Below are positions 33,157-49,666 of a stretch of DNA of 64,000 nt, piece by piece. The notes below the pieces were generated by a model, which did not search any database, was not told where the DNA came from, and saw only the letters and a list, made by a program, of their open reading frames with translations. How positions within the stretch are numbered: position 1 is the stretch's first letter; every line of letters starts with the position of its first letter. The position numbers were made by a program, and so were the translations under genes. Source of the DNA: a virus; the IMG/VR virus record IMGVR_UViG_3300017917_001274, positions 1-64,000 of that record, one strand, 5' to 3'.

Positions 33157-33157
33157 T

Positions 33158-33352: not shown

Positions 33353-33410
33353 CAACGTGGCGGGGGCCAACGAGAGAGCCCCCACTAATTTACTAACATA
33401 GGAGCGAACT

Positions 33411-33770: not shown

Positions 33771-33780
33771 GGAGCGAACT

Positions 33781-34269: not shown

Positions 34270-34301
34270 AGAGGTATTGTAATTAATTAGGAGCGAAAAG
34301 A

Positions 34302-35372: not shown

Positions 35373-35373
35373 T

Positions 35374-35915: not shown

Positions 35916-36188
35916 ATGAAACACTTTAACAAAAACACTAAGACTTTTAAGGTATTCAACGCATTGTATAACGGTGCTACTTTAACTGCTGCCGAAGCTA
36001 AGAAGCGTTTTGGCGTAGGTAACTTGGCTGCTGAAGCAAGCCGCATCCGTGCAAATGGTTACGCTGTTTACGCCAACAGCCGTGTTGCAGGTAATGGTGT
36101 TAAGGTAACTGAATATGTATTGGGCAAGCCAAGCCGTAAGATTGTTGCCCTTGGTTACAAAGCCGCTCAGATGGGTATCACCCTCTAA
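35916..36188 (+). CDS. Small winged-helix-like basic protein (90 aa)
   Basis: 90 aa, pI basic: TFKVFNALYNGATLTAAEAKKRFGVGNLAAEASRIRANGYAVYANSR reads as a winged helix-turn-helix (helix, helix, recognition helix, wing). A DNA-binding regulator or small nucleoid protein is likely. Its ribosome-binding site is GAAGGAAC, not the GGAGCGAA used by its neighbours, and its 3'UTR carries the anti-GGAGCGAAT element and a terminator. A -35-like TTGACT with weak -10 TAAACT lies at 35827-35855. Confidence 0.68.
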   Translation: MKHFNKNTKTFKVFNALYNGATLTAAEAKKRFGVGNLAAEASRIRANGYAVYANSRVAGNGVKVTEYVLGKPSRKIVALGYKAAQMGITL

Positions 36189-36200
36189 GACGCAGAGTTC

Positions 36201-36239
36201 AAATTCCAATCCGATTCGCTCCCGGGGCGGGGTTTGGGG
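36201..36239 (+). promoter_or_regulatory. 3'UTR anti-ribosome-binding-site element, copy 1
   Basis: CCGATTCGCTCCCGG at 36211-36225. CCG/CGG can pair, with extension by CCAATCC/GGGTTTGG, so ATTCGCTCC (36214-36222) sits in the loop. The loop is the reverse complement of GGAGCGAAT, the shared early ribosome-binding motif. A terminator follows at once. Confidence 0.6.
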
Positions 36240-36266
36240 AAGGGTCCAGAAGGGCCCTTTCTTTTT
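36240..36266 (+). terminator. Rho-independent terminator
   Basis: AAGGGTCC-AGAA-GGGCCCTT (one G-U pair) then TCTTTTT. Confidence 0.85.
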
Positions 36267-36360
36267 GGCCTTACTGTGGCAAAAATACAACACCCCCGGC
36301 ACTCCTCCCCTGGCAAAGATTTACTGCACAAACTTAGGCTCATTGTGCGTCATTGTGGGG

Positions 36361-36389
36361 TTGACATTTTGGGCAAATGATCGTATAAT
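36361..36389 (+). promoter_or_regulatory. Early promoter
   Basis: TTGACA, 17 bp beginning TTTTGGGCAAA, TATAAT. Confidence 0.85.
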
Positions 36390-36413
36390 AAGTATATTAT
36401 GAAGGAGCGAACA

Positions 36414-37046: not shown

Positions 37047-37054
37047 CCCTTCGG

Positions 37055-37083
37055 TTGACAAGGTCTTTGTTTGATGCTATAAT
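37055..37083 (+). promoter_or_regulatory. Early promoter
   Basis: TTGACA, 17 bp, TATAAT with TGC extended -10. Confidence 0.85.
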
Positions 37084-37133
37084 ACTAATACTGAGAGAAG
37101 TAATGTTTGAAGTAAATCTAAAGCGAGGTCTAT

Positions 37134-38219
37134 ATGAGTAAAACCACTGATGTATCCGTCCGTCAAGTTGGCCCTAAGTCAGCCAAGAAATCCATCCGTA
37201 AGGCGCTGAGTGTTCGCCGTCCTACTTTCCTTTGGGGCCCTCCAGGAATTGGTAAATCCGATGTGGTCAAGCAGATTGGCGAAGAACTCAAGCGTGAAGT
37301 AATTGACGTTCGCTTGGCCCTGTGGGAACCCACAGACATCAAAGGTATTCCTTATTACAACTCGGACAAGGGTGCCATGGTTTGGGCTCCTCCTGCAGAA
37401 TTGCCCACAGACCCAGAGTCCACTGCTATTATCTTCCTTGATGAGTTGAACTCTGCTCCTCCGGCTGTTCAGGCAGCGGCCTATCAGTTGATCCTGAATC
37501 GCCGTGTTGGTACCTATGAATTGCCCAAAGGCGTTGATGTAGTGGCCGCGGGTAACCGTGAAGGCGATCGTGGTGTTACCTATCGTATGCCAGCGCCATT
37601 GGCCAACCGTTTCGTTCACTTGGAAATGAAAGTGGACTTTGATGACTTCCAGGACTGGGCTACCCTTAACAAGGTGCATCCTGAGGTTGTAGGTTATGTA
37701 GGCTTTGCCAAGCAAGACTTGTATGACTTTGATCCTAAGTCAGCATCCAAGGCTTTCGCAACTCCTCGCTCATGGGTGTTCGTATCCGATCTACTGTCAG
37801 ATGATGATGTAGACACTGATACTCTACACAACTTGATCGCGGGTGCCGTTGGTGATGGCCTTGCACAGAAGTTCATGGCTCACCGTAAGATCGCAGGTCG
37901 TTTGCCCAAGGCAGATGACATCCTTGATGGTAAAGTCAAAGACTTGCAGATCAAAGAAGTGTCAGCGATGTATTCCTTGACCGTTAGCCTCTGCTATGAG
38001 CTCAAAGATCGTGCAGAGAAGAAGGCAGCCAAGTGGGATGATATGGCGGATCGTTTCTTCCGTTATATGATGGATAACTTCCCAACTGAGCTCGTGGTCA
38101 TGGGTGCCAAGACAGCCCTTACCAACTATGACTTGCCCTTGGACGCAACTAAGATGAAGTCCTTTGACGAGTTCCATAAGAAGTATGGTAAGTATGTGCT
38201 TTCAGCGATGGAGAACTAA
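37134..38219 (+). CDS. MoxR-type AAA+ ATPase
   Basis: 361 aa. Walker A GPPGIGKS (35-42), Walker B IIFLDELNSAP (99-109), sensor 1 VVAAGN (GNREGDRG), and the PAPLANRFVHLEM Arg-finger region typical of MoxR. MoxR ATPases work with VWA proteins to remodel or metalate targets. The next gene is exactly such a VWA protein, so the two form a module. Its site is AAGCGAGG, not GGAGCGAA. Confidence 0.92.
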   Translation: MSKTTDVSVRQVGPKSAKKSIRKALSVRRPTFLWGPPGIGKSDVVKQIGEELKREVIDVRLALWEPTDIKGIPYYNSDKGAMVWAPPAELPTDPESTAIIFLDELNSAPPAVQAAAYQLILNRRVGTYELPKGVDVVAAGNREGDRGVTYRMPAPLANRFVHLEMKVDFDDFQDWATLNKVHPEVVGYVGFAKQDLYDFDPKSASKAFATPRSWVFVSDLLSDDDVDTDTLHNLIAGAVGDGLAQKFMAHRKIAGRLPKADDILDGKVKDLQIKEVSAMYSLTVSLCYELKDRAEKKAAKWDDMADRFFRYMMDNFPTELVVMGAKTALTNYDLPLDATKMKSFDEFHKKYGKYVLSAMEN

Positions 38220-38235
38220 GACCTCGTTCATCGCA

Positions 38236-38263
38236 GGGTGTGGGCTTCTCAGGGCTCACACCC
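38236..38263 (+). terminator. Terminator-like hairpin
   Basis: GGGTGTGGGC / GCTCACACCC stem with a weak T-rich tail (CTTTATT), between the MoxR and VWA genes. Confidence 0.55.
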
Positions 38264-38278
38264 ACCTTTATTGGGCGG

Positions 38279-38307
38279 TTGACAACTGAGAATTTTGGTG
38301 CTATAAT
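38279..38307 (+). promoter_or_regulatory. Early promoter
   Basis: TTGACA, 17 bp, TATAAT with TGC extended -10. Confidence 0.85.
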
Positions 38308-38333
38308 ATATACATATATTAGGAGAGCGAACA

Positions 38334-39542
38334 ATGCAAGATCCAATCGTAGAGAAACTGACAACTGCCCGAGTTGGCCTTCTGCTCAAAGCACCTTTCT
38401 TTGGTAATATGGCAACTCGTATGCGTCTCATTGACGCTTCAGACTGGTGCCCAACCGCGGCAACCAACGGTCGTGACTTTATGTATAACAAAGAGTTCGT
38501 GACCAAACTATCTGTTAAGAAGTTAGAGTTCCTCTTTGCACACGAAATCTGTCACGCTATCTTTGATCACTTTGGCCGTGTAGGTAGCCGTGATCGTATG
38601 CTGTCTAATATCGCTCAGGACTATGCTGTCAATCAGATCCTTGTCGATGAGCGTATTGGCGAGAAGATCACTGAAGTTCAGATCTGCTATGACAGCAAAT
38701 ATCGTGGTAAGGCTTGGGAAGAGATCTATGACGAGCTCTACGAAAAAGCAGAGAAGGTGTCTATGCCTGAATTGCTCAAAGAGTTAGGTGACTTGCTTGA
38801 CGAGCATATCAAAGAAGAAGAGGGTGCCGGCAGTGAGGGCGACAAGACCAAAGACGGTAAGAGTAAGCCCAGCCTTAGCAAAGAAGAAGCACAGAAGATC
38901 AAGGACGAGATCAAGCAGGCTATGATCCAGAGTGCCGCGGCCGCAGGTGCAGGTAAGGTACCCGCAGGTATCCAACGCATGATCAAGAACTTAACTGAGC
39001 CTAAGATGGATTGGCGTCAGTTGGTTCGCCAAGAGATCCAGAGCATTGTTCGCAATGACTATTCCTTTACTCGCCCTAACCGTAAGAGTATGCACAGTGG
39101 TGCTATCCTTCCGGGCATGAAAGAAGCAACTACCATTGACGTGGCTATCGCTATCGATATGTCAGGTAGTATCGGTGAAGCAGACGCAACTGTATTCCTT
39201 TCAGAGATCAAAGGTATTATGGATCAATACGAGGACTTTAAGATCAACTTGTGGTGCTTTGATACAGAGATCTACAATCATCAGGCTATCACACATGATA
39301 ACAGTGACGATCTATTAAACTATGAGCCTATGGGCGGTGGTGGCACAGACTTTGAAGTGAACTTTACTTTCATGGAAGAGAATGGCATTATGCCCAAGAA
39401 GTTCATTATGTTCACAGACGGCTATCCTTGTGGTAGTTGGGGTCCTGAGGACTATTGCGATACGATCTTTATTGTCAAAGGCAATACATCCGCAGAAGCG
39501 CCGTTTGGTCAGACAGTGATCTACGAAAAGGAAACGGCCTAA
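38334..39542 (+). CDS. VWA-domain metallopeptidase-like protein (DUF2201 type)
   Basis: 402 aa. The N-terminal domain holds the zinc-protease-type motif HEICH (70-74), with VGSRDRMLSNIAQDYAVNQIL behind. An acidic/Lys linker spans about 155-200. The C-terminal VWA domain has MIDAS DMSGS (275-279), GGGGTDFEV and FTDGYP. This is the usual partner of MoxR ATPases; the pair is adjacent and each gene has its own promoter. Function in phage unknown. Confidence 0.9.
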   Translation: MQDPIVEKLTTARVGLLLKAPFFGNMATRMRLIDASDWCPTAATNGRDFMYNKEFVTKLSVKKLEFLFAHEICHAIFDHFGRVGSRDRMLSNIAQDYAVNQILVDERIGEKITEVQICYDSKYRGKAWEEIYDELYEKAEKVSMPELLKELGDLLDEHIKEEEGAGSEGDKTKDGKSKPSLSKEEAQKIKDEIKQAMIQSAAAAGAGKVPAGIQRMIKNLTEPKMDWRQLVRQEIQSIVRNDYSFTRPNRKSMHSGAILPGMKEATTIDVAIAIDMSGSIGEADATVFLSEIKGIMDQYEDFKINLWCFDTEIYNHQAITHDNSDDLLNYEPMGGGGTDFEVNFTFMEENGIMPKKFIMFTDGYPCGSWGPEDYCDTIFIVKGNTSAEAPFGQTVIYEKETA

Positions 39543-39613
39543 GAGTGCCGGCGGGTGTGGCATTTTTGCCACAGACCCCGCTGCTACACGTATACATGTG
39601 TATAGGTAGATGG

Positions 39614-39642
39614 TTGACATTTAGACAAATTGGTGCTATACT
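39614..39642 (+). promoter_or_regulatory. Early promoter
   Basis: TTGACA, 17 bp, TATACT with TGC extended -10. A GTGTGGCA/TGCCACA hairpin (39555-39573) precedes it. Confidence 0.83.
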
Positions 39643-39673
39643 ATAGGTATAGTAAGTAGAAAGGAGCGGTAAG

Positions 39674-39820
39674 ATGGAACTGTTAATTGCATTCGTAGCA
39701 GGACTGTTAGTAATGGATTTCCTTTGGGCTTGGCGTATGGGCATTCCCCAAGCTCTGTGGTATAAGTTCAAGCATCGCAATGACCCAAAACCTAACTATT
39801 CAGAATGGAGTGAAGACTAA
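39674..39820 (+). CDS. Small single-TM protein (48 aa)
   Basis: 48 aa: helix MELLIAFVAGLLVMDFLWAW, then a basic-to-acidic tail. GGAGCGG site. It shares 17 identical bases, ATTGCATTCGTAGCAGG, with the next gene (39835), so the two membrane helices look duplicated. Confidence 0.6.
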   Translation: MELLIAFVAGLLVMDFLWAWRMGIPQALWYKFKHRNDPKPNYSEWSED

Positions 39821-39948
39821 TGATTAAGATCATTATTGCATTCGTAGCAGGGATGTTTGTGGCAACTGTAGGCATCTCTGGGGTGGCTAACGCAGTAGAC
39901 AAGGCCGTTGGTAAAACTCAAGAGGTTATGAAGGAAACTGTTAAATGA
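39820..39948 (+). CDS. Small single-TM protein (42 aa)
   Basis: 42 aa: helix MIKIIIAFVAGMFVATVGIS and a charged tail. Start overlaps the previous stop (TAATG). N-terminal half duplicated from or to 39674-39820. Confidence 0.55.
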   Translation: MIKIIIAFVAGMFVATVGISGVANAVDKAVGKTQEVMKETVK

Positions 39949-40088
39949 GCTACTTTAAATTATACGAAGATCCTATGTATGATGAAGACGGTCAGCTTGT
40001 TGACGAGGACTCTGATGAAGGTGATTGGGAAGATGATATTCCTGTACACACAGACGAACTCAGCCCTTACATCACGGTGAATTCATGA
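39945..40088 (+). CDS. Very acidic small protein (47 aa)
   Basis: 47 aa, 17 Asp/Glu (MSYFKLYEDPMYDEDGQLVD then EDSDEGDWEDD). ATGA overlap at both ends. Strong acidity would suit DNA mimicry, an idea without direct support. Confidence 0.5.
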   Translation: MSYFKLYEDPMYDEDGQLVDEDSDEGDWEDDIPVHTDELSPYITVNS

Positions 40089-40378
40089 GCAGACTTGAAT
40101 ACTATTCACGCCCATGGGTCGCGTTTGATGCAGAGAACAAAGAGCACAGACGTTATTACGCAGAGTTCCTGAAGTTCAACACCTGGGGTCGTTGTCCAGT
40201 GCGTTTCATAGTCACAGACGAACACGCAGACAACCTGCCCACGATGATCCGCAACAAACTCTGCGAATACTACGTGGCACAGGAGTTCAAGGGCGAGAAG
40301 CTGGAAAAGAGAGGCCCTAAGCATCGTAAGGTTATTGGGTTGACAAATGGCGGGCACGGTGTTATAATAGAATCATAG
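40085..40378 (+). CDS. Conserved early protein (97 aa)
   Basis: 97 aa, aromatic: RPWVAFDAENKEHRRYYAEFL, GRCPVRFIV, MIRNKLCEYYVAQEF. I recall relatives in other phages, with no function. Last codons contain the promoter of the next gene. Confidence 0.6.
   Translation: MSRLEYYSRPWVAFDAENKEHRRYYAEFLKFNTWGRCPVRFIVTDEHADNLPTMIRNKLCEYYVAQEFKGEKLEKRGPKHRKVIGLTNGGHGVIIES
40340..40368 (+). promoter_or_regulatory. Early promoter inside coding end
   Basis: TTGACA, 17 bp, TATAAT in the 3' end of 40085-40378. Confidence 0.82.
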
Positions 40379-40398
40379 TAACTGATAAGGAGCGAACC

Positions 40399-40746
40399 AT
40401 GTCAAATTTCGAAACGATCAAAGTCCAGATGGCCCACGTCAAAGCCATGGACGCAGCACAGAAGGCCGCTCAGGCATTCGCAGACAAACACTTCGGCGGC
40501 CGAGACGGGGGTGCCTGTGGCTTTGCTTGGGTCACGGTCAATGAAGTCCGCAGCAACTCTAAGATGGGCAAGGCCCTTGCAGAAGTGGGATTCCGTCCAG
40601 GTTATCCACGTGGTCTGCAACTGTGGAATCGCTGGTGGAACGGTCAATCCGTAGATGCTGCTGAGCATGGGGCAACTGCCTATGCGATGGTCATGAAGGA
40701 AGAGTTGGGTCTCGAAACTATCTATTCGGGATCACGGTTAGATTAA
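40399..40746 (+). CDS. Conserved early protein (115 aa)
   Basis: 115 aa. AFADKHFGGRDGGACGFAWVTV and GLQLWNRWWNGQSVDAAEHGA are strongly patterned blocks I recall from other phages. Mixed alpha/beta, no function assigned. AAGGAGCGAAC site; ends at a strong terminator. Confidence 0.65.
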   Translation: MSNFETIKVQMAHVKAMDAAQKAAQAFADKHFGGRDGGACGFAWVTVNEVRSNSKMGKALAEVGFRPGYPRGLQLWNRWWNGQSVDAAEHGATAYAMVMKEELGLETIYSGSRLD

Positions 40747-40761
40747 GGCGATGCTTGTTTT

Positions 40762-40790
40762 GACCCTACGATTTGTAGGGTCTTTTTTTT
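40762..40790 (+). terminator. Rho-independent terminator
   Basis: GACCCTAC/GTAGGGTC stem, TTTTTTTT. Only 2 bp before the next -35 box. Confidence 0.92.
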
Positions 40791-40792
40791 GG

Positions 40793-40821
40793 TTGACAGA
40801 TTGGTAAAAGTATGTTATTAT
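40793..40821 (+). promoter_or_regulatory. Early promoter
   Basis: TTGACA, 17 bp, TATTAT. Confidence 0.78.
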
Positions 40822-40847
40822 ATACACATACTAAGAAGGAGCGAAAA

Positions 40848-41114
40848 ATGATAGATCAATTATACCAACAGACTGAAAAAGAAGCAACCGTGGCAGCCCT
40901 AAAGGGTCCTCAGTTTGTGCGTAACCGCCATGGTTCATTGTATGATCGTGGCAGTGCCGATTCATACTACCGCCGTCCTCCACAGCCACACTACGGTGGT
41001 GTAGGTGGTGACTCAGGTGATCGTGTCCATGTGCAGGACGCAGAGTCAGTAAAGGAATACATGGCTGGCTATAACTATAACGAAGCCACTGGCTGTTTCA
41101 AGGACTACGATTAA
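40848..41114 (+). CDS. Small Tyr/Gly-rich early protein (88 aa)
   Basis: 88 aa, starting MIDQLYQQTEKEATVAALKG. A disordered Tyr/Pro/Gly/Arg centre (SYYRRPPQPHYGGVGGDSGD) and an acidic end. AAGGAGCGAAA decides the start. Function unknown. Confidence 0.58.
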   Translation: MIDQLYQQTEKEATVAALKGPQFVRNRHGSLYDRGSADSYYRRPPQPHYGGVGGDSGDRVHVQDAESVKEYMAGYNYNEATGCFKDYD

Positions 41115-41446
41115 TGGAAGCAGTGCGTGAGGTCACTGATTGGGACACACCCAATCATACCTACTTGCTGGACGGCACAACTCTGATTGCCTATATCAAG
41201 CAGGGCGACACAGAGCCTTTCTACTTTAAGAAAGGTATCAAGAACTTTGATAAGCGTGGCCGTAAGTTTGTGCCAGCCGATGCGAGCCTCTTTGATTCCC
41301 ACGTGAATACAGTTGAGAATGCACTGCAGATGATCCAGGGATCCAAGGGTGCCGTTTATTATGTAGATCCTGTAGAGAAGACCTGCACTTGCCCTGGTTA
41401 CACATTCAGGGGCAAATGTAAGCACACGGAGGGATTATATGCCTAA
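41114..41446 (+). CDS. SWIM zinc-finger protein (110 aa)
   Basis: 110 aa. The C-terminal SWIM-type finger CTCPGYTFRGKCKH (C-x-C-x8-C-x-H) is preceded by VENALQMIQGSKGAVYYVDP. SWIM fingers bind DNA or proteins. The remaining N-terminal part is beta-rich. Start overlaps the previous stop. Confidence 0.78.
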   Translation: MEAVREVTDWDTPNHTYLLDGTTLIAYIKQGDTEPFYFKKGIKNFDKRGRKFVPADASLFDSHVNTVENALQMIQGSKGAVYYVDPVEKTCTCPGYTFRGKCKHTEGLYA

Positions 41447-41675
41447 GTATGTGTTTGAAGTCTATCGCAGAAGTATAGTCTGTGAAACCTACTTCATAGA
41501 GGCTGATTCTGAAGAGGAAGCACTGGAGATGGCCAACGATGGGGACACACCCGATCCGCAGATAGACTTCCTCGATTGGTATGACGATACCTACACTGTA
41601 GAGGGTAAAGAGTGCATTGACCCTTTGTATAAGATGGTTAAAGGCTACAAATCGGTTGACAAATTGGATGTTTGA
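41439..41675 (+). CDS. Small early protein (78 aa)
   Basis: 78 aa, MPKYVFEVYRRSIVCETYF then EADSEEEALEMANDG: a beta-hairpin and acidic helix of the type seen in many short phage proteins (DpnD/PcfM-like layout). Its last codons contain the promoter of the next gene. Confidence 0.6.
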   Translation: MPKYVFEVYRRSIVCETYFIEADSEEEALEMANDGDTPDPQIDFLDWYDDTYTVEGKECIDPLYKMVKGYKSVDKLDV

Positions 41676-41684
41676 CTGTATAAT
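41656..41684 (+). promoter_or_regulatory. Early promoter inside coding end
   Basis: TTGACA, 17 bp, TATAAT. Confidence 0.83.
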
Positions 41685-41710
41685 ATACACATAACTTAGA
41701 GGAGCGACTT

Positions 41711-42298
41711 ATGCCAAATTGGTGTTCAAACTTTGTAGCAATCACAGGTCCCAAGGCTCGCATTGCTGAGCTCAAGGATGCTTATGATCGTGGTGAGTTC
41801 TGTGAGTCTGTTATCCCAGTTCCCCAACCACTCAAAGACGCTGTTGCTGATGGAAGCGTCGATGAAGAGCTCGTCAAAGAGTTTGGCTACGCTAACTGGT
41901 ATGACTTTTGTGTGAACCGTTGGGGAACCAAATGGGATTTTGGTGGTGACGGTGGCGCAGACTTAGATGACAACGGTGAGTGCCTAACAATATCATTTGA
42001 CTCAGCGTGGGCTCCTCCTGTGGGCGTCTATGAAGAGTTAGATCTTGAAGGACTCAAGATCGAAGCCTGCTACTATGAACCAGGGTGCGGATTCTGCGGT
42101 ATGTATACCTCTGAGTCAGGCGATGACTGCTATGATATTTCAAACATGTCAGCAGATCAAGTAGCAAACATGATTCCACAGGAGTTAGATGACTGCATGG
42201 GCATCACAGAAACTATGCGTGAATACGAAGAGCCAGAAGAGTTATCAGAATGGCTCAAGGATGGTATTGAGGCTCGTAAAGAGCAGGGAGTGGCCTAA
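41711..42298 (+). CDS. Api92-like protein (DUF1281 type)
   Basis: 195 aa. MPNWCSNFVAITGPKARIAELKD is the characteristic opening of the Api92/DUF1281 family of phage and plasmid proteins, with a ferredoxin-like fold. The later WGTKWDFGGDGG and SFDSAWAPPVGVYEEL blocks also fit. Function unknown. GAGGAGCGACT site. Confidence 0.8.
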   Translation: MPNWCSNFVAITGPKARIAELKDAYDRGEFCESVIPVPQPLKDAVADGSVDEELVKEFGYANWYDFCVNRWGTKWDFGGDGGADLDDNGECLTISFDSAWAPPVGVYEELDLEGLKIEACYYEPGCGFCGMYTSESGDDCYDISNMSADQVANMIPQELDDCMGITETMREYEEPEELSEWLKDGIEARKEQGVA

Positions 42299-42591
42299 TG
42301 GCCTTCTTAGCCAAGCTCAATCGCAACTACAAGGGCTATGGACACTTCACGCACCGCGTGGAGTTCTATGGCTACGGTGACGCAAACAGGAAGCATGTGC
42401 AACAGCAGTGGATTAAGCTACGCAACTATCTGTGGAACCGTTTTGGACCCAGTGCCGAACAAGAGCTTGCTCGTCCGGACAACTTTGACGGAGTTCAGCC
42501 AAAATGGGCCTGGGACGGCGAAAAGAGCAGTATATACTTGCGTGATGAAGCATTGGTAGAGTTCCTATTACAGCAGGAGAAGTATGTATGA
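42298..42591 (+). CDS. Early protein (97 aa)
   Basis: 97 aa, aromatic and basic N-terminally (LNRNYKGYGHFTHRVEFYGYG), then WIKLRNYLWNRFGPSAEQEL. Start overlaps the previous stop by 1 base. No family recognised. Confidence 0.58.
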   Translation: MAFLAKLNRNYKGYGHFTHRVEFYGYGDANRKHVQQQWIKLRNYLWNRFGPSAEQELARPDNFDGVQPKWAWDGEKSSIYLRDEALVEFLLQQEKYV

Positions 42592-42767
42592 GAGAATACA
42601 AATACATGTTCACTGTGATCTGCAAGGGTGCAGGTCGAGCGGACGAGGGCCGAGTCGAAACCATGATCGATTTGGCCATGCAGGATCTGGTCTATGATGA
42701 CGAGTTTATCGCAGCATTAGACGAGAAGGAGGCTGTAACCATTCAGGTGTCTCGTTTGGGCATCTAA
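42588..42767 (+). CDS. Small early protein (59 aa)
   Basis: 59 aa: MREYKYMFTVICKGAGRADE then an acidic helix and VTIQVSRLGI. ATGA-type overlap with the previous gene. Confidence 0.55.
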   Translation: MREYKYMFTVICKGAGRADEGRVETMIDLAMQDLVYDDEFIAALDEKEAVTIQVSRLGI

Positions 42768-42771
42768 ATGG

Positions 42772-42800
42772 TTGCAGTTTTGAGCAATCGAGTGTATAAT
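42772..42800 (+). promoter_or_regulatory. Early promoter
   Basis: TTGCAG, 17 bp, TATAAT. Weaker -35 than its siblings. Confidence 0.65.
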
Positions 42801-42849
42801 TAATACTCGAGCAGTAACAACGTTAACACACACAGAAAGAGGTAACAAA

Positions 42850-43149
42850 ATGGCAACAAACAAAAAGTTCGCAGTAGCAGGTGTAAGTACTTTAAACGGT
42901 AAGACCAAGATCCGTTTCGCTAACGACGTTATGCGTATCAAGATCCTGGCCAAGAACGGACACACGGGTGTAGAACTGATTGATTTACCCCATGAGATGA
43001 CCAAAGCTGAAATCGCGCAGCATCTCGTTGAAATTGGATTTGGCAAGGGCAACTCCGCTATCGAAGCTGCCATTGCGTACACTATCAAGAAGAATCCGGC
43101 TGGGAAGCCCGAGAAAACAGCAGCCGTCAAGGCCGCAGTCGCAGCTTAA
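42850..43149 (+). CDS. Conserved basic early protein (99 aa)
   Basis: 99 aa, basic, starting MATNKKFAVAGVSTLNGKTK; RFANDVMRIKILAKNGHTGVELIDLPHEMTKAEI, and a Lys/Ala-rich tail (KAAVAA). I recall homologues across many phages. The shape fits a small DNA-binding protein. Its ribosome-binding site AAAGAGGTAACAAA lacks the GGAGCGAA motif. Its stop codon lies inside the stem of the anti-ribosome-binding-site hairpin. Confidence 0.68.
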   Translation: MATNKKFAVAGVSTLNGKTKIRFANDVMRIKILAKNGHTGVELIDLPHEMTKAEIAQHLVEIGFGKGNSAIEAAIAYTIKKNPAGKPEKTAAVKAAVAA

Positions 43150-43174
43150 CCGATTCGCTCCCGGTTCTAAGCTG
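43142..43174 (+). promoter_or_regulatory. 3'UTR anti-ribosome-binding-site hairpin, copy 2
   Basis: CAGCTTA-ACCG pairs with CGGT-(TC bulge)-TAAGCTG, an 11-bp stem that presents exactly ATTCGCTCC (43153-43161) in a 9-nt loop. The loop is fully complementary to GGAGCGAAT. The core CCGATTCGCTCCCGG (43150-43164) is identical to 36211-36225. A strong terminator follows 10 nt later. Confidence 0.7.
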
Positions 43175-43182
43175 TAGTTTGG

Positions 43183-43215
43183 GGGGTGTTGTGTAAAAAC
43201 AACACCTCTTTTTTT
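43183..43215 (+). terminator. Rho-independent terminator
   Basis: GGTGTTGT/ACAACACC stem, 6-nt loop, then TCTTTTTTT. Confidence 0.92.
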
Positions 43216-43217
43216 GG

Positions 43218-43246
43218 TTGACATTTTGGACAAACGGTGCTATACT
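43218..43246 (+). promoter_or_regulatory. Early promoter
   Basis: TTGACA, 17 bp beginning TTTTGGACAAA, TATACT with TGC extended -10. Confidence 0.85.
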
Positions 43247-43273
43247 GTTTGTAATTAAACAATAGGAGTGAAC

Positions 43274-43441
43274 ATGCTAACTAACAAACCTTTAACAGCT
43301 ACAGAAGCAACTGAGATGATTGCACAATTGGACGCTATTGCGGACAGACTATTTGCAGCTGGTTACAACACGTTAGGCAACAACACACAGGAAATTGTGT
43401 ATTGTATGGAAGCTAATTTAGCAGAGCAACTGGAAGGTTGA
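43274..43441 (+). CDS. Small early protein (55 aa)
   Basis: 55 aa helical: MLTNKPLTATEATEMIAQLD, then DRLFAAGYNTLG. AGGAGTGAAC site (variant of the shared motif). Stop codon overlaps the next -35 box. Confidence 0.58.
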   Translation: MLTNKPLTATEATEMIAQLDAIADRLFAAGYNTLGNNTQEIVYCMEANLAEQLEG

Positions 43442-43466
43442 CTTTTGGCGTGTTTGGCAGTATAAT
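43438..43466 (+). promoter_or_regulatory. Early promoter overlapping a stop codon
   Basis: TTGACT, 17 bp, TATAAT. Confidence 0.8.
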
Positions 43467-43497
43467 ATACACATATAGTTAAACAAAGGAGCGAGCA

Positions 43498-43767
43498 ATG
43501 ACCTATACCACAACTATCAATCTCAACCGTTTCGTAGAGCAACACAACTCTTGGGAAGCCCTGTTCAAACAGCCTCCACTACGCATTGGACGTGATAACC
43601 AAAAGATCGCCAATGCCATTGATTCAGCACTGAGCCCAGAGAACCTAACCTGCGACGGTGAATTATCCAGCAGTGCGGTGCGCCAACGCTGGGATCACCT
43701 AACAGCGGCAGCCAGGGAGTTACAGCAGTTGGATCCCACAGTGACCTTTTACGAATACGCAGAGTAA
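43498..43767 (+). CDS. Small early protein (89 aa)
   Basis: 89 aa, soluble, helical: NRFVEQHNSWEALFKQPPLR, DNQKIANAIDSAL. AAGGAGCGAGC site. No family recognised. Confidence 0.58.
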   Translation: MTYTTTINLNRFVEQHNSWEALFKQPPLRIGRDNQKIANAIDSALSPENLTCDGELSSSAVRQRWDHLTAAARELQQLDPTVTFYEYAE

Positions 43768-43775
43768 ATATCTAT

Positions 43776-44150
43776 ATGGAAACAATAATTCTCACTGTGG
43801 CAGCGTTTGTGTTAGGCTGGATCCTGAGTGCCTTCGTGACCACGGTCCGACAGGCACAGGCCTTTAAGCAGATCCTCAATGATCTGGGCGTAACCACTGA
43901 GCAACTGCTCAAACTCCGGGATCGCATTGATCAAGAGGACGAACCCCAGGATCTGCCACGTGAAACCGTAGTAGAAGTCACCCTGGAACAGCACAATGAT
44001 GTAATCTATGCGTATCGTAAGAGTGACAGCCAGTTCTTGGGCCAGGGCACAGATCGCGAAGCTCTGATCCAGCATCTAAACCACACATTTGCTCGTGGTG
44101 CTCGCATAATCATCCGTGAACAGGACGGCGCAGACTTGGTAAAACCTTAG
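43776..44150 (+). CDS. Membrane-anchored coiled-coil early protein (124 aa)
   Basis: 124 aa: an N-terminal membrane helix (METIILTVAAFVLGWILSAF), a helical segment (QILNDLGVTTEQLLKLRDRI) and a C-terminal alpha/beta part (VVEVTLEQHNDVIYAYRK). The soluble part faces the cytoplasm if the N-terminus is periplasmic. Function unknown. Confidence 0.58.
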   Translation: METIILTVAAFVLGWILSAFVTTVRQAQAFKQILNDLGVTTEQLLKLRDRIDQEDEPQDLPRETVVEVTLEQHNDVIYAYRKSDSQFLGQGTDREALIQHLNHTFARGARIIIREQDGADLVKP

Positions 44151-44172
44151 CAGCAGTAGGGTTATTTGCTAC

Positions 44173-44201
44173 TTGACAAATTGGGCTCCCTGTGTTATAC
44201 T
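44173..44201 (+). promoter_or_regulatory. Early promoter
   Basis: TTGACA, 17 bp, TATACT. Confidence 0.82.
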
Positions 44202-44228
44202 GTTTTTAAGTTAACAAAAGGAGCGAAT

Positions 44229-44363
44229 ATGCAAAGTTATAAAGTAACATTTACAGTGTATGTAGAAGCAGAAGATGCGGAGCAAGCACAGGAGCAAGCC
44301 GTAGAGTTTGCCTCCGAAGAAGATTTAACATTTATCGCTGATATTAACACAGAGATTGTGTAA
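44229..44363 (+). CDS. Small acidic early protein (44 aa)
   Basis: 44 aa: MQSYKVTFTVYVEAEDAEQA, then an acidic helix and TFIADINTEIV. One beta-alpha-beta unit. Its GGAGCGAATATG is the only full 9-nt match to the anti-element loop. Confidence 0.58.
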   Translation: MQSYKVTFTVYVEAEDAEQAQEQAVEFASEEDLTFIADINTEIV

Positions 44364-44367
44364 TGTC

Positions 44368-44399
44368 AATAGCCCTACAACACGTAGGGCTATTATTTT
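44368..44399 (+). terminator. Rho-independent terminator
   Basis: AATAGCCCTAC/GTAGGGCTATT 11-bp stem, then ATTTT. The next -35 box is 2 bp away. Confidence 0.88.
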
Positions 44400-44401
44400 G
44401 G

Positions 44402-44430
44402 TTGACATTTTGGACAAGTTATGTTACAAT
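44402..44430 (+). promoter_or_regulatory. Early promoter (leaderless start)
   Basis: TTGACA, 17 bp beginning TTTTGGACAAG, TACAAT; ATG at 44437 is 6 nt after the -10 box. Confidence 0.8.
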
Positions 44431-44436
44431 ATGAAC

Positions 44437-44658
44437 ATGAACTTAGCAAACATAGCCAAACATTTAGCATTGATCAGTACCCTCGCTGGAGCAGGTGCAA
44501 CAGCATTAGCTTGGGATCCCCTGAACATAGTATTACTGAACGTAGGATCAGTATTATATCTATACTGGAGTTACACAGTTAGAGACTGGAACCTCGTAGC
44601 AGTGAATTCAGGCTTATTGACAATCTACGCAATTGGTGCTATAATTAGATTATCATAA
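44437..44658 (+). CDS. Two- or three-TM small membrane protein (73 aa)
   Basis: 73 aa starting MNLANIAKHLALISTLAGAG, mostly hydrophobic (LNIVLLNVGSVLYLYWSYTV, AVNSGLLTIYAIGAIIRLS). ATG 44437 is preferred to 44431, which overlaps the expected transcription start. No ribosome-binding site. Confidence 0.58.
   Translation: MNLANIAKHLALISTLAGAGATALAWDPLNIVLLNVGSVLYLYWSYTVRDWNLVAVNSGLLTIYAIGAIIRLS
44617..44645 (+). promoter_or_regulatory. Early promoter inside coding end
   Basis: TTGACA, 17 bp, TATAAT with TGC extended -10, in the 3' end of 44437-44658. Confidence 0.8.
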
Positions 44659-44674
44659 AGAAGGAGCGAAACAA

Positions 44675-44845
44675 ATGACTATACAGAGACTTGGAGCAGC
44701 ATACATCATCGGCGGCCTACTACTCACAATGGGTGCAGTGGGCGGCATGGAAACTCAACCTGAAGCTTCATTGCTGGCACAGTGCCTGGCAGCAGTGAGC
44801 GGACTTATACTAATGTACACAGGCACAAGACTAATTAAGGAATAA
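44675..44845 (+). CDS. Two-TM small membrane protein (56 aa)
   Basis: 56 aa: RLGAAYIIGGLLLTMGAVGG and LAQCLAAVSGLILMYTGTRL are two helices. AAGGAGCGAAAC site. Starts a coupled run of four small genes. Confidence 0.55.
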   Translation: MTIQRLGAAYIIGGLLLTMGAVGGMETQPEASLLAQCLAAVSGLILMYTGTRLIKE

Positions 44846-44846
44846 T

Positions 44847-45071
44847 ATGACATTGAAACAGAGAGCGTTATTGGATGTGGCCAAGATGTTTGGCCTTGGA
44901 GCAGGAGTAGGAGTTGCGGTAGCACTCAGCGGCATCTACATTGGACAGATCCCTACTATGATTGTAGTGGGCTTGATCAGTATAGGATACCTGTGCAAGG
45001 TCTGCTATGACATGCGAGTAAGCCAGCTACAGTTTGAAGCTGATCGTGTTGAACGAGCATTGAAGAAATGA
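44847..45071 (+). CDS. Two-TM small membrane protein (74 aa)
   Basis: 74 aa: LGAGVGVAVALSGIYIGQI and MIVVGLISIGYLCKVCYDM helices, then a basic/acidic helix. One base after the previous stop. Confidence 0.55.
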   Translation: MTLKQRALLDVAKMFGLGAGVGVAVALSGIYIGQIPTMIVVGLISIGYLCKVCYDMRVSQLQFEADRVERALKK

Positions 45072-45301
45072 TAACCATCACAGGGCTCACGCCCAAACAG
45101 AAGGCCCTGATCAGTGTGATGTGGGACTTGGACACCATGGACCGTGTGCGAGCATTCATCAGCACACTGCCCAGGAGGGATCAAGTAGATGCACAAGGGC
45201 TGCTTGAGATAGCCATATGGGAATCAATAGAACAACAGGAAGGATTGGAACAGTATGAACAGACTGCTAAAGATCTTATTAGTCACTGTAGCCGTAAGTA
45301 G
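45068..45301 (+). CDS. Small helical protein (77 aa)
   Basis: 77 aa, soluble: ITGLTPKQKALISVMWDLDT, VRAFISTLPRRDQVDAQGLL. ATGA overlap with the upstream gene; overlaps the lipoprotein gene by 47 bases. No family recognised. Confidence 0.55.
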   Translation: MITITGLTPKQKALISVMWDLDTMDRVRAFISTLPRRDQVDAQGLLEIAIWESIEQQEGLEQYEQTAKDLISHCSRK

Positions 45302-45497
45302 TACTGTATTAACTACGGGCTGTGCGCAGATACACGCAGAGTTAAAGCGTGATCGCAGAGATGCGCCCTGGGACCCAAAGCCGGGACAACAGTTGTTCTC
45401 ACAGATACCAGCCTGGGATGGTGCTGCCAATAGAGTCTGTGGGGGACACTTGACTGAAGAAGAGAGGCGGGCCACTGGGAAGAGCCCGAGGTGTTGA
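45255..45497 (+). CDS. Lipoprotein (80 aa)
   Basis: Signal peptide with lipobox MNRLLKILLVTVAVSSTVLTTGC (acylated Cys23), then a Pro/Trp-rich mature part (RRDAPWDPKPGQQLFSQIPA) with Cys near the end. Superinfection exclusion, adsorption block or o-spanin are all possible. Last gene of the early region. Confidence 0.65.
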   Translation: MNRLLKILLVTVAVSSTVLTTGCAQIHAELKRDRRDAPWDPKPGQQLFSQIPAWDGAANRVCGGHLTEEERRATGKSPRC

Positions 45498-45526
45498 GGG
45501 GTGACCGGTATAGTATGTTAGTGTAC

Positions 45527-45549
45527 ACTAACGTTTTTTAGCGTGGTAG
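45527..45549 (+). terminator. Palindromic Rho-independent terminator
   Basis: Perfect palindrome GTTAGTGTACACTAAC, G, then TTTTTT. Closes the early region. Confidence 0.8.
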
Positions 45550-45649
45550 TGGTCTAAAATCACCACCCAGAAAAGATAAGTACTCCACCCAAATTTTTTG
45601 CGCGGCTATTTTTTTACCCTGCAGGACCCTTTTGGGCTATATACACATT

Positions 45650-45862
45650 ATGGAATTACTGACTTTAATCATGGTAGCATTGTTGGGCTATCAAGTTACC
45701 ATGCCCGCAGTGGACAATGGCAGATACACTTTTAACATAGATCCCCGGGACAGTTCTGTGATCGTAATGAACACACAAACGGGCCAGATGTTTCGCTGCA
45801 CACAGGACTTTAAATGTTCCAACGGTCTTGATCTACACAATGCCATTGAACCAAAGAAATAA
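45650..45862 (+). CDS. Small secreted or membrane protein (70 aa)
   Basis: 70 aa: signal-like MELLTLIMVALLGYQV, then a beta-rich mature part with two Cys (FRCTQDFKCSNG). TATATA-like box 6-10 nt before the ATG; no Shine-Dalgarno. Confidence 0.55.
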   Translation: MELLTLIMVALLGYQVTMPAVDNGRYTFNIDPRDSSVIVMNTQTGQMFRCTQDFKCSNGLDLHNAIEPKK

Positions 45863-45865
45863 GCT

Positions 45866-46063
45866 ATGAAACTGTTCATCCTACAATTGCTCACTGCTGT
45901 AACTGCCACAGGATTTATCACGCTCACAGTCACTCACATGCACTATGATCCCTTCCACTTTGAGCTGTTATTATGGTTACAGCATTGGATCACAGCCATT
46001 CCCATAGCACTGATAACTGTTAGATATATTGCTCCATGGTATAAAAAGGTGTTTAAACTGTGA
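45866..46063 (+). CDS. DUF2798-like two-TM protein (65 aa)
   Basis: 65 aa: two membrane helices (MKLFILQLLTAVTATGFITL and WLQHWITAIPIALITVRY) ending in PWYKKVFKL. The pattern matches the DUF2798 family of small bacterial membrane proteins. Coupled to the DUF2061-like gene behind. Confidence 0.6.
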   Translation: MKLFILQLLTAVTATGFITLTVTHMHYDPFHFELLLWLQHWITAIPIALITVRYIAPWYKKVFKL

Positions 46064-46308
46064 TCTACGAAACTCGTACACGCAGTCTTGTCAAAACAGT
46101 CATATATCGCATATGGGTCTTGATCACCACGTACTGTATGTTATTGATCACTGGACAGAGTCTTAGTCAAGCTCTTGTGCCCACTATAATCATAAACTGT
46201 ATATGGATGACTTCATTCTACTTGTACGATCGCTTATGGGCTCGTATCACATGGGGTAGAGTCAGTACTAACCATACTAAGGAAAGTCATAGTACTAAAA
46301 AGCCATAA
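46060..46308 (+). CDS. DUF2061-like membrane protein (82 aa)
   Basis: 82 aa: RTRSLVKTVIYRIWVLITTY then LVPTIIINCIWMTSFYLYDRLWARITWGR, which matches the DUF2061 pattern (S-x-V-K-T-x-x-x-R, YxYDRLW). Two helices, unknown role. ATGA-type overlap with 45866-46063; a bacterial pair captured together is possible. Confidence 0.68.
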   Translation: MIYETRTRSLVKTVIYRIWVLITTYCMLLITGQSLSQALVPTIIINCIWMTSFYLYDRLWARITWGRVSTNHTKESHSTKKP

Positions 46309-46348
46309 ATCGTCATATAATCAGTGTAAGTACACCGTAAATAATTAT

Positions 46349-46417
46349 ATGAATACAGCAGAGTTTTTTGCAGGCGTGCTCATGATTGCATTGGGATTGA
46401 TACATGTATTCATGTGA
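46349..46417 (+). CDS. Tiny hydrophobic peptide (22 aa)
   Basis: 22 aa: MNTAEFFAGVLMIALGLIHV, one membrane helix. GTAAATAATTAT precedes the ATG. Supported only by composition. Confidence 0.3.
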   Translation: MNTAEFFAGVLMIALGLIHVFM

Positions 46418-46420
46418 TCA

Positions 46421-46669
46421 GTGCTGATAGTTTACCTCGAGCCTCTGCAACTACCACAACAACAGTTGTTGACCCATTGGTCACACTCTGTACACTATTG
46501 GCCCAGATCGTGGTCACATACTGATGCTTACAATGCAGCCATACCCATAGATTGGTGGTTGCTGTTCAAGAACGCACAGTTGGCTGATCTATGGTTATTA
46601 AAGTATCCAGAACAATCACGTATCATAAGAACACTGTTTGACACAGATGATCCGCAGATAGAACGATAA
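46421..46669 (+). CDS. Small Trp/Leu-rich protein (82 aa)
   Basis: 82 aa: MLIVYLEPLQLPQQQLLTHW, then a Trp-rich centre and acidic end. GTG at 46424-46426 is a possible start; no clear ribosome-binding site. Unknown. Confidence 0.45.
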   Translation: MLIVYLEPLQLPQQQLLTHWSHSVHYWPRSWSHTDAYNAAIPIDWWLLFKNAQLADLWLLKYPEQSRIIRTLFDTDDPQIER

Positions 46670-46715
46670 ACACACGGTAGATTGGAGATCGCCGGGGACA
46701 CAGAAATCGCTACCT

Positions 46716-46795
46716 TTTTTGCGCTGCTTCGCAGCTTACTTCGTAATTTTTGCGCTGACGCTTCGCGCTCTAAAATTGCGCTGCGGCTTCGCCTT
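46716..46795 (+). repeat. Three REP-like hairpin repeats
   Basis: Three consecutive units of about 27 nt with the core TTTGCGCTG-n-CTTCGC, each able to fold (GCTGC-TTC-GCAGC, GCG..CGC, GCGGC-TTC-GCC). A related inverted copy lies at 30541-30590 and TTTTTTGCGCGGC at 45595-45607. Confidence 0.6.
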
Positions 46796-46811
46796 AGTTC
46801 TTAAATACACC

Positions 46812-47417
46812 ATGAGCAAGATCACACCCTTATTCAGTATGCCCATGTACACTGAGATCCTGGATTTATCTCAATGTCCGGATCACTGTAGTGTAGAGTT
46901 CAATCAATTTTATGATCTCAGCCAAAGCACGGACAATCACATCTTAGACACTGAGCCGTGGCAGCCTTTGCGAACACAGATAGATCAGTGTTTGAGGGAA
47001 CTGTTCCACAGCTATCTGAGTGCTGTTGAGGGAGTGGAATTGATCATAACACAGAGCTGGATCAATCGCTATGAGCAGGGGCAGAGCCAGCCCAGACACT
47101 TTCACTCAAACAGTGTGTTTTCTGGTGTGATCATGCTGTGTGATCATCCTTCAGATCTTGAGTTTTATTCTCCACATCGCAGCAATCATCGCTGGGACAT
47201 ACGAGAACTAAACATTTGGAACAGCCACAGTTGGCGCATGCCCTGTGAACGAGGACTGCTGATCATCACTCCTTCTGTGTTGGATCATCAGACACAGATC
47301 AATCAATCTGGGCAGGATCGTTGGAGCATGGCCTTTGACACTGAGATACAAGGTGACACACAGTGGGTACGGCAAGTTTCAGAAACACTGGGCAATCTCT
47401 CCAGATTCCGTTCGTGA
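46812..47417 (+). CDS. 2OG-Fe(II) oxygenase-like protein
   Basis: 201 aa. The block SWINRYEQGQSQPRHFHSNSVFSGVIMLCDHP (His-x-His of the metal site, then SGV) and the end RGLLIITPSVLDHQTQINQ-S-DRWSMAFD (distal His and Arg) match the 2OG-FeII_Oxy_5 group common in T4-like phages. The substrate may be a protein or nucleic acid. TTAAATACACC precedes the ATG. Confidence 0.8.
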   Translation: MSKITPLFSMPMYTEILDLSQCPDHCSVEFNQFYDLSQSTDNHILDTEPWQPLRTQIDQCLRELFHSYLSAVEGVELIITQSWINRYEQGQSQPRHFHSNSVFSGVIMLCDHPSDLEFYSPHRSNHRWDIRELNIWNSHSWRMPCERGLLIITPSVLDHQTQINQSGQDRWSMAFDTEIQGDTQWVRQVSETLGNLSRFRS

Positions 47418-47443
47418 TCATAAACTGATCAGTTAAATATCTC

Positions 47444-47695
47444 ATGCTAAAAAATATCATTGATTTTGTATTCCCACCGGGTCGCACAGATTGGGAAACA
47501 TTAACAGAAGGCCTGTATGCCAACGAATACACTGATCCCCAAGTTCGTGATCAGATTGCTCAAAGTTACTCAGCTCGTTGGAGTCAGCCACTGCCCACAC
47601 CGGCCACAGCACCATGGCTGTTTGATCCGCTGACACCACCCCAGGGATGGCGCTATGATCCCTACTATGAAATTTGGATAAAATTCAAGGACTGA
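47444..47695 (+). CDS. Small phage protein (83 aa)
   Basis: 83 aa: a short N-terminal helix (MLKNIIDFVFPPGRTDWETL), then Pro/Trp-rich (PATAPWLFDPLTPPQGWRYD). No family recognised. TTAAATATC late-like box before the ATG. Confidence 0.55.
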   Translation: MLKNIIDFVFPPGRTDWETLTEGLYANEYTDPQVRDQIAQSYSARWSQPLPTPATAPWLFDPLTPPQGWRYDPYYEIWIKFKD

Positions 47696-47696
47696 T

Positions 47697-48866
47697 ATGA
47701 TCACTACTATGTTTATTATCGCTGCCATGGTCATGATACCATGGATCGTATGGCGACTGCTGCGACTGGAGTCGTGGATGCCTTTGCCTATGTTCCAGAT
47801 ATTCTGCGGCATATTGATCGGGCCGTCGGCTCTGGGAGCTTATCATCCTGAGATCTTTAGTACCCTGTTCACACCCGGTGTCAGAGCCAGTTTGGACACC
47901 ATACAGACCATGGCCATTATCATATTTGCGTTCATGGCAGGTCTTGAGTTAAAACCCCGAGAAGTGTTGGCACAGGAAGGACAGGGCATATGGCTCAAGG
48001 CCTTCCAAGTCATAGTTTTGCCCATAGGCCTGGCTGCAGCCTGTTTTGCCATATTTTTCGATTCGGGCATATGGCACGATCCTTCAGCAGGACTAATGCA
48101 GTTTGCTTGGGCCATGGGTGTGGCCACATGTATCACTGCTCTGCCCATGTTGGTTGTGGCTTCCAAGAGCATAGGCATCTACGGCACAGATCTTTATCGT
48201 AGACTGTTGGCCTTGGTCACATTTGATGATCTTATACTTTGGTTGACCATAGGCTTGATCATTGCCTTTGGCAAGACCATGATGTTGGCTTCTGTGTTCT
48301 TTGCAGCCACAGCTTTGGTCTATTGGTTATATCCCAGATTGATGAACTGGCTGGGCGAAAGCTCATGGCCCACACTCACTGTGGCTCTGGTCTTTACTTG
48401 GGCAGCATTCAGCCATTGGGCAGGCCTACACTGGCTATTAGGTGGTTTCCTTGCTGGCATGATCATACCACGAGAAACCACTAAATGGTTGGGCGGTATG
48501 GCTGAACATCAAATGTATTGGTTAATGCCTGTGTTCTTTATCTGGACTGGCTTGAAAGTACAGTGGACCAGCCCGTTAGAAATAATTCTTGGTGCTGCTG
48601 TGGGCATGTATATGATCGCAGTTGTGACAAAGTTTGTGGGAGTTTGGTTGGCCTATCGCAGCGAGGGTATCCGCAGGGTCATGTTCAAAACTGCTCTGCT
48701 ACAGAACAAAGGGCTGATGGAGATCTTCTTGGCCACAGTCTTGCTCAAAGCACAGATCATCACAGGCGACATGTTTGCCGCAGTGGTCATAATGAGTCTA
48801 ATTTCCACAGGTTCAGCAGTGCCCTTGGCTCGTTTAGTAGATGATAAAACTGCAAAATCTGCATAA
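47697..48866 (+). CDS. CPA2-type cation:proton antiporter
   Basis: 389 aa with about 11-12 membrane helices. Signatures: FAFMAGLELKPREVL, the transport-site aspartate pair in LLALVTFDDLILWLTIG, HWLLGGFLAGMIIP and the long C-terminal helical half. Matches Na+/H+ or K+/H+ antiporters of the KefB/NapA type without the C-terminal TrkA domain. Full-length transport core, so a functional pump is likely. Very unusual for a phage. Starts 1 nt after the previous stop. Confidence 0.9.
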   Translation: MITTMFIIAAMVMIPWIVWRLLRLESWMPLPMFQIFCGILIGPSALGAYHPEIFSTLFTPGVRASLDTIQTMAIIIFAFMAGLELKPREVLAQEGQGIWLKAFQVIVLPIGLAAACFAIFFDSGIWHDPSAGLMQFAWAMGVATCITALPMLVVASKSIGIYGTDLYRRLLALVTFDDLILWLTIGLIIAFGKTMMLASVFFAATALVYWLYPRLMNWLGESSWPTLTVALVFTWAAFSHWAGLHWLLGGFLAGMIIPRETTKWLGGMAEHQMYWLMPVFFIWTGLKVQWTSPLEIILGAAVGMYMIAVVTKFVGVWLAYRSEGIRRVMFKTALLQNKGLMEIFLATVLLKAQIITGDMFAAVVIMSLISTGSAVPLARLVDDKTAKSA

Positions 48867-48869
48867 ATA
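48862..48869 (+). promoter_or_regulatory. Late promoter-like CATAAATA
   Basis: CATAAATA at the antiporter stop codon, 5 nt before the ATG at 48875; a 7/8 match to the late consensus. Confidence 0.5.
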
Positions 48870-48874
48870 TCATT

Positions 48875-49093
48875 ATGGATAATAACATGTACTTGTTGCC
48901 CATGGCTCGTAATGTAGTCACTGGGCAAACTGTGAAAAATCAAGATCTCACTGGTGCAAGGTATACTCAACAGCAGTATGCCTTGGCCGAAGAGCAGGCT
49001 CGTGTTCTTGCTGAAAAAATGTCTACGAGAACTGGTGTGCCCTGGGTAGGATTTGTCAAACCCTACGTACCTTCAATTCGAAACGAACAGTAA
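48875..49093 (+). CDS. Small phage protein (72 aa)
   Basis: 72 aa: NMYLLPMARNVVTGQTVKNQ, then a helical part (QQYALAEEQARVLAEKMSTR) and VGFVKPYVPS. No family recognised; the ATG at 48887 is an alternative start. Confidence 0.55.
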   Translation: MDNNMYLLPMARNVVTGQTVKNQDLTGARYTQQQYALAEEQARVLAEKMSTRTGVPWVGFVKPYVPSIRNEQ

Positions 49094-49531: not shown

Positions 49532-49605
49532 CGTGCCCCTGTTGATGGATTATATGCGTATTTATTATTCACGGCAAAAAACCGCATTTTTGGTGCCCTG
49601 TGGCC

Positions 49606-49634
49606 TTGTCCGATTAAATATTTTACTGTATAAT
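49606..49634 (+). promoter_or_regulatory. Sigma-70-type promoter before BI-1 gene
   Basis: TTGTCC, 17 bp, TATAAT; AAGGAG site and ATG at 49667. Confidence 0.65.
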
Positions 49635-49666
49635 AAAATTATACGCAACCACAAGGAGTTCAAAAT

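Follow-up and report, generated by a model that had tools for sequence, protein, structure and literature searches.

The question raised by this locus is why the 3′ end of a small phage gene should fold into a hairpin whose loop is the complement of the ribosome-binding site (RBS) of a whole set of other genes of the same phage. The DNA analyzed here, hereafter called the window, is a stretch of 64,000 nucleotides from a virus record of 68,127 bases, and its features bearing on the question are collected in table 1. According to the preliminary description, a hairpin with an 11-bp stem and a 9-nt loop complementary to the RBS overlies the stop of gene 42850 and is directly followed by a terminator. 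Folding of positions 43130-43210 agrees with this except for the stem, which has 12 bp with a 2-nt bulge: the loop, ATTCGCTCC, occupies the 9 nt of 43153-43161 and is unpaired, the z-score is -3.6, equaled by none of 200 shuffled sequences, and the terminator hairpin proper spans 43181-43210 and precedes a T run. Since the stem of this hairpin (copy 2) extends into the coding sequence, the same bases encode both protein and RNA. A further hairpin (copy 1) presents ATTCGCTCC at 36214-36222 and shares with copy 2 an identical 15-nt core, CCGATTCGCTCCCGG; its z-score is by itself unremarkable (-0.6).

Like 3′UTR-derived small RNAs, copy 2 lies at the 3′ end of an mRNA and is followed by an intrinsic terminator. 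No sigma70 consensus promoter was found in a scan immediately upstream of it, and a test of G-U pairs together with folding of each strand gave no strand difference for the hairpin. Only tRNA scored above the Rfam cut-off in positions 30000-50000 of the window, where the hairpins match no family; in the relatives, tRNA and one glutamine riboswitch were the only matches at the gathering cut-off, the latter being an aptamer in a glnA leader on a phage contig (L273:16717-16764). Another conserved motif, CCGGCACTC (36295-36306), is located past the terminator of copy 1, ahead of the promoter that follows, and recurs 3′ of this terminator in many relatives (L003-L063). (Of note, the window also holds host-like metabolic genes, namely an aminotransferase at 23403-24629, a sodium/hydrogen exchanger at 47697-48866, a carbamoyltransferase at 53692-55161 and a sugar epimerase at 62449-63450).

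Table 1. Hairpins, terminators, carrier genes and candidate target sites in the window
Feature	Coordinates	Strand	Evidence or remark
Anti-RBS hairpin copy 1	36200..36236	+	fold
Intrinsic terminator directly 3′ of copy 1	36237..36269	+	fold, sequence
Anti-RBS hairpin copy 2	43141..43175	+	fold; overlaps stop codon of 42850 gene
Intrinsic terminator directly 3′ of copy 2	43181..43216	+	12-pair stem, T run
Carrier gene of copy 1, winged-helix protein (Pfam HTH_39, phrog_4973)	35916..36188	+	own RBS AAGGAACAC
Carrier gene of copy 2, 99 aa	42850..43149	+	own RBS AGAGGTAA
Candidate target RBS GGAGCGA, gene 33411	33401..33407	+	duplex -13.1 kcal/mol
Candidate target RBS GGAGCGA, gene 33781	33771..33777	+	22 nt after sigma70 -10
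Candidate target RBS GGAGCGA, gene 34302 (AAA ATPase, phrog_1250)	34290..34296	+	motif, promoter, duplex
Candidate target RBS GGAGCGA, gene 36414	36404..36410	+	14 nt after -10
Candidate target RBS GGAGCGA, gene 40399	40389..40395	+	motif, promoter, duplex
Candidate target RBS GGAGCGA, gene 40848	40838..40844	+	motif, promoter, duplex
Candidate target RBS GGAGCGA, gene 41711	41701..41707	+	motif, promoter, duplex
Candidate target RBS GGAGCGA, gene 43498	43488..43494	+	motif, promoter, duplex
Candidate target RBS GGAGCGA, ATG 44229	44220..44226	+	whole loop matched, 9 nt
Candidate target RBS GGAGCGA, gene 44675	44663..44669	+	motif, promoter, duplex
Variant candidate target GGAGAGCGAACA, gene 38334	38322..38333	+	-10.6 kcal/mol
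Variant candidate target GGAGCGGTAAG, gene 39674	39663..39673	+	variant as first described
Variant candidate target GGAGTGAAC, gene 43274	43265..43273	+	one G-U, -11.2 kcal/mol

The loop ATTCGCTCC is complementary to the RBS GGAGCGAA of 10 genes that we take to be early because of their promoters and their position; most of these sites lie close to the start of a transcript. The window contains 14 copies of GGAGCGA where 3.5 would be expected, and none of 100 shuffled sequences reached this number. Ten of these copies lie 2-7 nt upstream of an ATG on the plus strand, all within 33.4-44.7 kb, and nine of the ten follow a promoter of the form TTGAC(A/T)-17-(near-)TATAAT by 14-22 nt, which places them near the transcript 5′ end; no promoter of this type precedes the site at 33401. 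The exact motif before ten plus-strand early genes and its variants before 38334, 39674 and 43274 are thus as first described, whereas the claimed site before the minus-strand gene 32071 does contain GGAGCGA but only 2 nt from the GTG, and is doubtful as an RBS. When the energy of the loop-RBS duplex was calculated for 113 gene starts, the sites listed above came out first and the early region provided 11 of the 12 best; with its unpaired loop and this duplex ranking, the hairpin offers an accessible seed complementary to the target RBSs. We also considered a kissing interaction of the loop with an RBS hairpin (CATA-GGAGCGAAC-TATG), which was rejected because some targets fold in this way and most do not.

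Hairpins of this kind are found in a large group of aquatic phages known only from uncultured material. When viral contigs were scanned for the exact pattern, 63 further loci emerged, nearly all of which have the same core between stop codon and terminator, and hairpins with the TCGCTCC core are found at 9.2 per 100 kb in RBS-bearing phages, compared with 0-0.3 for control 7-mers; together, these results exclude chance. A search with the carrier protein, which is unbiased for the loop, returned 42 loci, mostly with the loop [AG][TC]TCGCTCC on very different stems. The loop core TCGCTCC is therefore kept in the relatives while the stems vary with compensation, and the covariation that had been proposed as a check is indeed present. 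Among 52 distinct relatives of copy 2, double changes affect all four inner pairs, and the covariation of the inner helix amounts to 0.190 as against 0.126 ± 0.017 after shuffling (0 of 500). The outer arms of copy 2 pair with their own partner at -12.7 kcal/mol and with swapped partners at -9.1 ± 0.37 kcal/mol, an advantage of 3.6 kcal/mol or about ten standard deviations; for the 65 distinct sequences of copy 1, the corresponding values are -10.5 and -7.7 ± 0.27 kcal/mol. One relative (L078) has a changed loop in copy 2 and a normal copy 1.

The same loop is also displayed in other settings. L155 has two tandem hairpins with a single loop sequence on the stems CCTAGG..CCTAGG and CCG..CGG. 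L259 and L260, which have 12-13 GGAGCGA RBSs, lack a hairpin 3′ of their homologue of the 99-aa gene and carry the loop in a terminator-like hairpin 3′ of an AAA-ATPase gene, and L265-L267 together with about 18 more phages have one or two hairpins with unrelated stems 3′ of the ATPase gene, the terminator hairpin often being one of them. The part common to all these structures is TCGCTCC and no stem, which favors base pairing over recognition of the hairpin by a protein. In L123, L132, L146, L154 and L163, the site 3′ of the winged-helix gene that is taken by the anti-RBS hairpin in other phages is occupied by a short palindrome (GGTTAGGCCTAACC in most) before the terminator. Elsewhere in the window (37134-39542), a MoxR-type AAA ATPase lies beside a DUF2201 metallopeptidase/VWA protein, an arrangement shared with PAC2 and other large phages of Pseudomonas.

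Loop and RBS motif also occur together. In whole records, at least three copies of GGAGCGA-N2-7-ATG are present only where hairpins are found, the truncated record G023 excepted, and records without hairpin have 0-2 copies; G024 and G030, in which the winged-helix locus has no hairpin, show tandem hairpins elsewhere and 14-18 GGAGCGA sites. The positions following GGAG are C, G, A and A in 83%, 80%, 59% and 57% of 613 leaders of hairpin phages, whereas in 34 leaders of hairpin-negative relatives the first three are C, G and A in 53%, 24% and 18%. Pairing with 16S rRNA accounts for GGAG but not for CGA. The ATPase homologues of PAC2, IME13 and Vibrio phage D508 are without hairpins and without a common RBS motif.

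The strongest evidence comes from a lineage in which both halves have changed. When RBS motifs were counted, with none chosen beforehand, in relatives regarded as negative, a winged-helix relative stood out (L280, a record of 357,559 bases) with the RBS AGGGCA at 13 early leaders, often twice per leader, and with three tandem TGCCCT hairpins, the last of which is the terminator, directly 3′ of an ATPase gene homologous to gene 34302 of the window. A scan with this ATPase revealed a second lineage with the RBS GAGGGC(A), in which the ATPase 3′UTR contains one to five GCCCTC cores, most of them in hairpins. We hereafter call the pair of loop TCGCTCC and site GGAGCGA code A, and that of loop GCCCTC and site GAGGGC code B; GCCCTC is present in the ATPase 3′UTR of all code-B representatives. 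Loci of RBS class A have loop A in 128 of 144 cases and loop B in none, and loci of class B have loop B in 27 of 45 cases and loop A in two, which are clade-A phages with borderline counts; near-identical contigs inflate these figures, so that the independent evidence consists of one joint switch, at least two joint losses and the stem-independent recurrence of the loop. Upstream of the orthologous ATPase gene, GGAGCGA is found in 35 of 43 code-A cases and [AG]AGGGC in 31 of 37 code-B cases. In the ATPase tree, L265-L267, which have code A and their hairpins after the ATPase gene, are the sister of code B, and RBS motif and hairpins have both been lost in L257 within A and in L342/L348/L352/L355 within B. 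One of the points at which the idea had been said to be open to failure was the fate of the loop in relatives with an altered RBS motif, and there the loop switches too.

Seed and target thus change together between codes A and B. An exception is L328, which retains GCCCTC hairpins while most of its RBSs read GAGGAGCA and could pair with the loops only via a bulge. Many early promoters of this phage (1717-12640) have one inverted repeat (ACACTAGCGC..GCGCTAGTGT) across -35 and -10, which looks like an operator. The early leaders of L325 (3258-8533) have in common a long 5′UTR that is conserved and structured (GTGAGCGAACAGCTC...), and GAGGGC RBSs are nearly absent there. L433 and L436 show ATTCGCTC in hairpins but lack an RBS motif to match, and in the more distant L424, L427, L428 and L431 the hairpin loops 3′ of the ATPase gene hold the plain anti-Shine-Dalgarno sequences CTCC and CCTCC. 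The pair GGAGCA/TTGCTCC, a candidate third code, is seen in two records only (L386 and L416/L465), and most relatives with GGAGCA RBSs have no recognized matching TTGCTCC hairpin. Common to phages with this RBS is a conserved element, GCTCC-(G/A)AAGTCC-..-GTAGTGTCCC (L455:14405, L461:11061, L465:13132), which is RNA-like and may be a further anti-RBS RNA.

The preservation of the loop on changing stems, its co-occurrence with the RBS, the joint switch and the joint losses strongly support base pairing between loop and RBS, and support the view that the two are complementary partners selected jointly. We consider it likely that terminator-linked anti-RBS loops repress early mRNAs as a group, with codes A and B as two versions, and the hairpins are thus probably a group switch turning early translation off. 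At the 3′ ends of early transcripts, the loops present a sequence complementary to the phage's own extended Shine-Dalgarno motif; as these transcripts build up, their 3′ ends, either as a processed small RNA or within the mRNA, would become available for pairing with the RBS of early mRNAs, whose 5′ leaders are short, ribosome loading would be blocked and early translation would drop as a group. In this scheme, we infer from the DNA the pairing in trans, the repression, the early-to-late timing and the release of a short RNA; repression would follow from the covering of Shine-Dalgarno bases by the loop, and release is made plausible by the terminator-linked 3′ position. A sponge of the CsrA type was rejected, since the loops display the complement of GGA and not GGA itself.

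The carriers were originally proposed to escape this control. Both carriers of the window do have other RBSs, and GGAGCGA is absent from all 34 distinct sequences upstream of winged-helix genes and from the RBSs of the genes listed for the 42850 family; such carriers would presumably go on being made. The proposal does not extend to hairpin-bearing AAA-ATPase genes, which usually have the target RBS themselves (4 of 5 in code A, 31 of 37 in code B), a situation that would amount to feedback. The 99-aa product of gene 42850 has no Pfam or PHROG match, nor was any DNA or protein match found among annotated phage relatives. A search of genome contigs with the carrier family recovered only two MAG contigs, both without the system.

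Alternatively, pairing could take place within or between full mRNAs, with no free small RNA, and serve autoregulation, stabilization or mRNA clustering. The ATPase carriers bear the motif in their own RBS, and the hairpins of the window close promoter-gene runs led by a gene with a target RBS (34290 to 36236, with gene 34302 at its head and copy 1 at its end, and 41701 to 43175). However, most targets belong to other units with promoters, and some with terminators, of their own, and the tandem repetition of loops suggests several partners, which renders this explanation unlikely. Somewhat less credible still is that the hairpins mainly silence mRNAs of the host or of a related, superinfecting phage with the same RBS code: any mRNA bearing the RBS would be struck and the differing codes of related lineages could be immunity groups, but the phage's own early genes are dense in a site that, if merely harmful, would be avoided. 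We think it very improbable that a DNA-binding protein reads the duplex GGAGCGAA/TTCGCTCC in leaders and operon ends, with the RNA loop being incidental. Complementary sequences do form one double-stranded site, and those in the leaders lie about 14-22 nt downstream of the -10 hexamer; yet the site holds the spacing of an RBS to the ATG, its 3′UTR copies sit in loops on covarying stems and even in terminator loops, and its orientation tracks the strand of the early genes in both places. Finally, early genes have promoters and leaders in the form of repeated cassettes, but that such cassettes and common terminator sequences coexist without functional link is scarcely believable in view of the joint switch, the joint losses, the 0 of 144 A-to-B mismatches and the background level of control cores.

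The group repression of early mRNAs proposed here can be compared with known systems. In Staphylococcus aureus, small RNAs of the RNAIII/RsaE type have unpaired, C-rich loops of the UCCC type through which they pair with several mRNAs at the Shine-Dalgarno sequence. These RNAs use the general Shine-Dalgarno sequence, whereas pairing in our phages would reach the lineage-specific CGA or GC beyond the complement of 16S rRNA. Bacterial small RNAs derived from 3′UTRs likewise have an mRNA 3′ end, hairpins, an intrinsic terminator and a short anti-RBS seed, but here one putative seed would face about a dozen self-encoded targets with one RBS, there are several copies, tandem loops and loops in terminator hairpins, and the code differs by lineage. 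In T4, RegB cuts within GGAG Shine-Dalgarno motifs of early RBSs and the translational repressor RegA covers the start region of early mRNAs (PMC3014915). Many early mRNAs are there switched off as a group at translation start, as would be the case here, but by proteins, whereas here an RNA loop, matching an extended RBS that differs between lineages, would confer the specificity. No protein of the RegA family was found in 19 records, but the control of this search was silent as well, so that the result says little. Among phage small RNAs, VpdS, PreS, 24B_1, c4 and IsrK include several that pair near translation start, and the examples in passages of a 2025 review act on host genes, on Hfq or on one or two phage genes; these passages describe no phage-wide early RBS regulon (PMC12197685). 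Anti-RBS RNA as such is already known, and what is new, as judged from open-access literature, is the shared lineage-specific code, its repeated display and the joint divergence of its two halves.

A wider generalization, to which we would give even chances, is that of a phage-wide translational code in which the early regulon is identified by an extended Shine-Dalgarno sequence peculiar to the lineage and is shut off by anti-code loops at the ends of transcripts; the codes would diverge by lineage, possibly with GGAGCA/TTGCTCC as a third, and may set superinfection compatibility groups. If group repression by these loops is true, an RNA code would stand in for proteins that, like RegA and RegB of T4, repress early translation, and both halves of the code would be legible from sequence alone, allowing early regulons to be found in uncultured phages. 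It would also be a compact natural design in which one RNA silences many genes, with a seed and about a dozen targets whose rules of change in concert could be traced over lineages.
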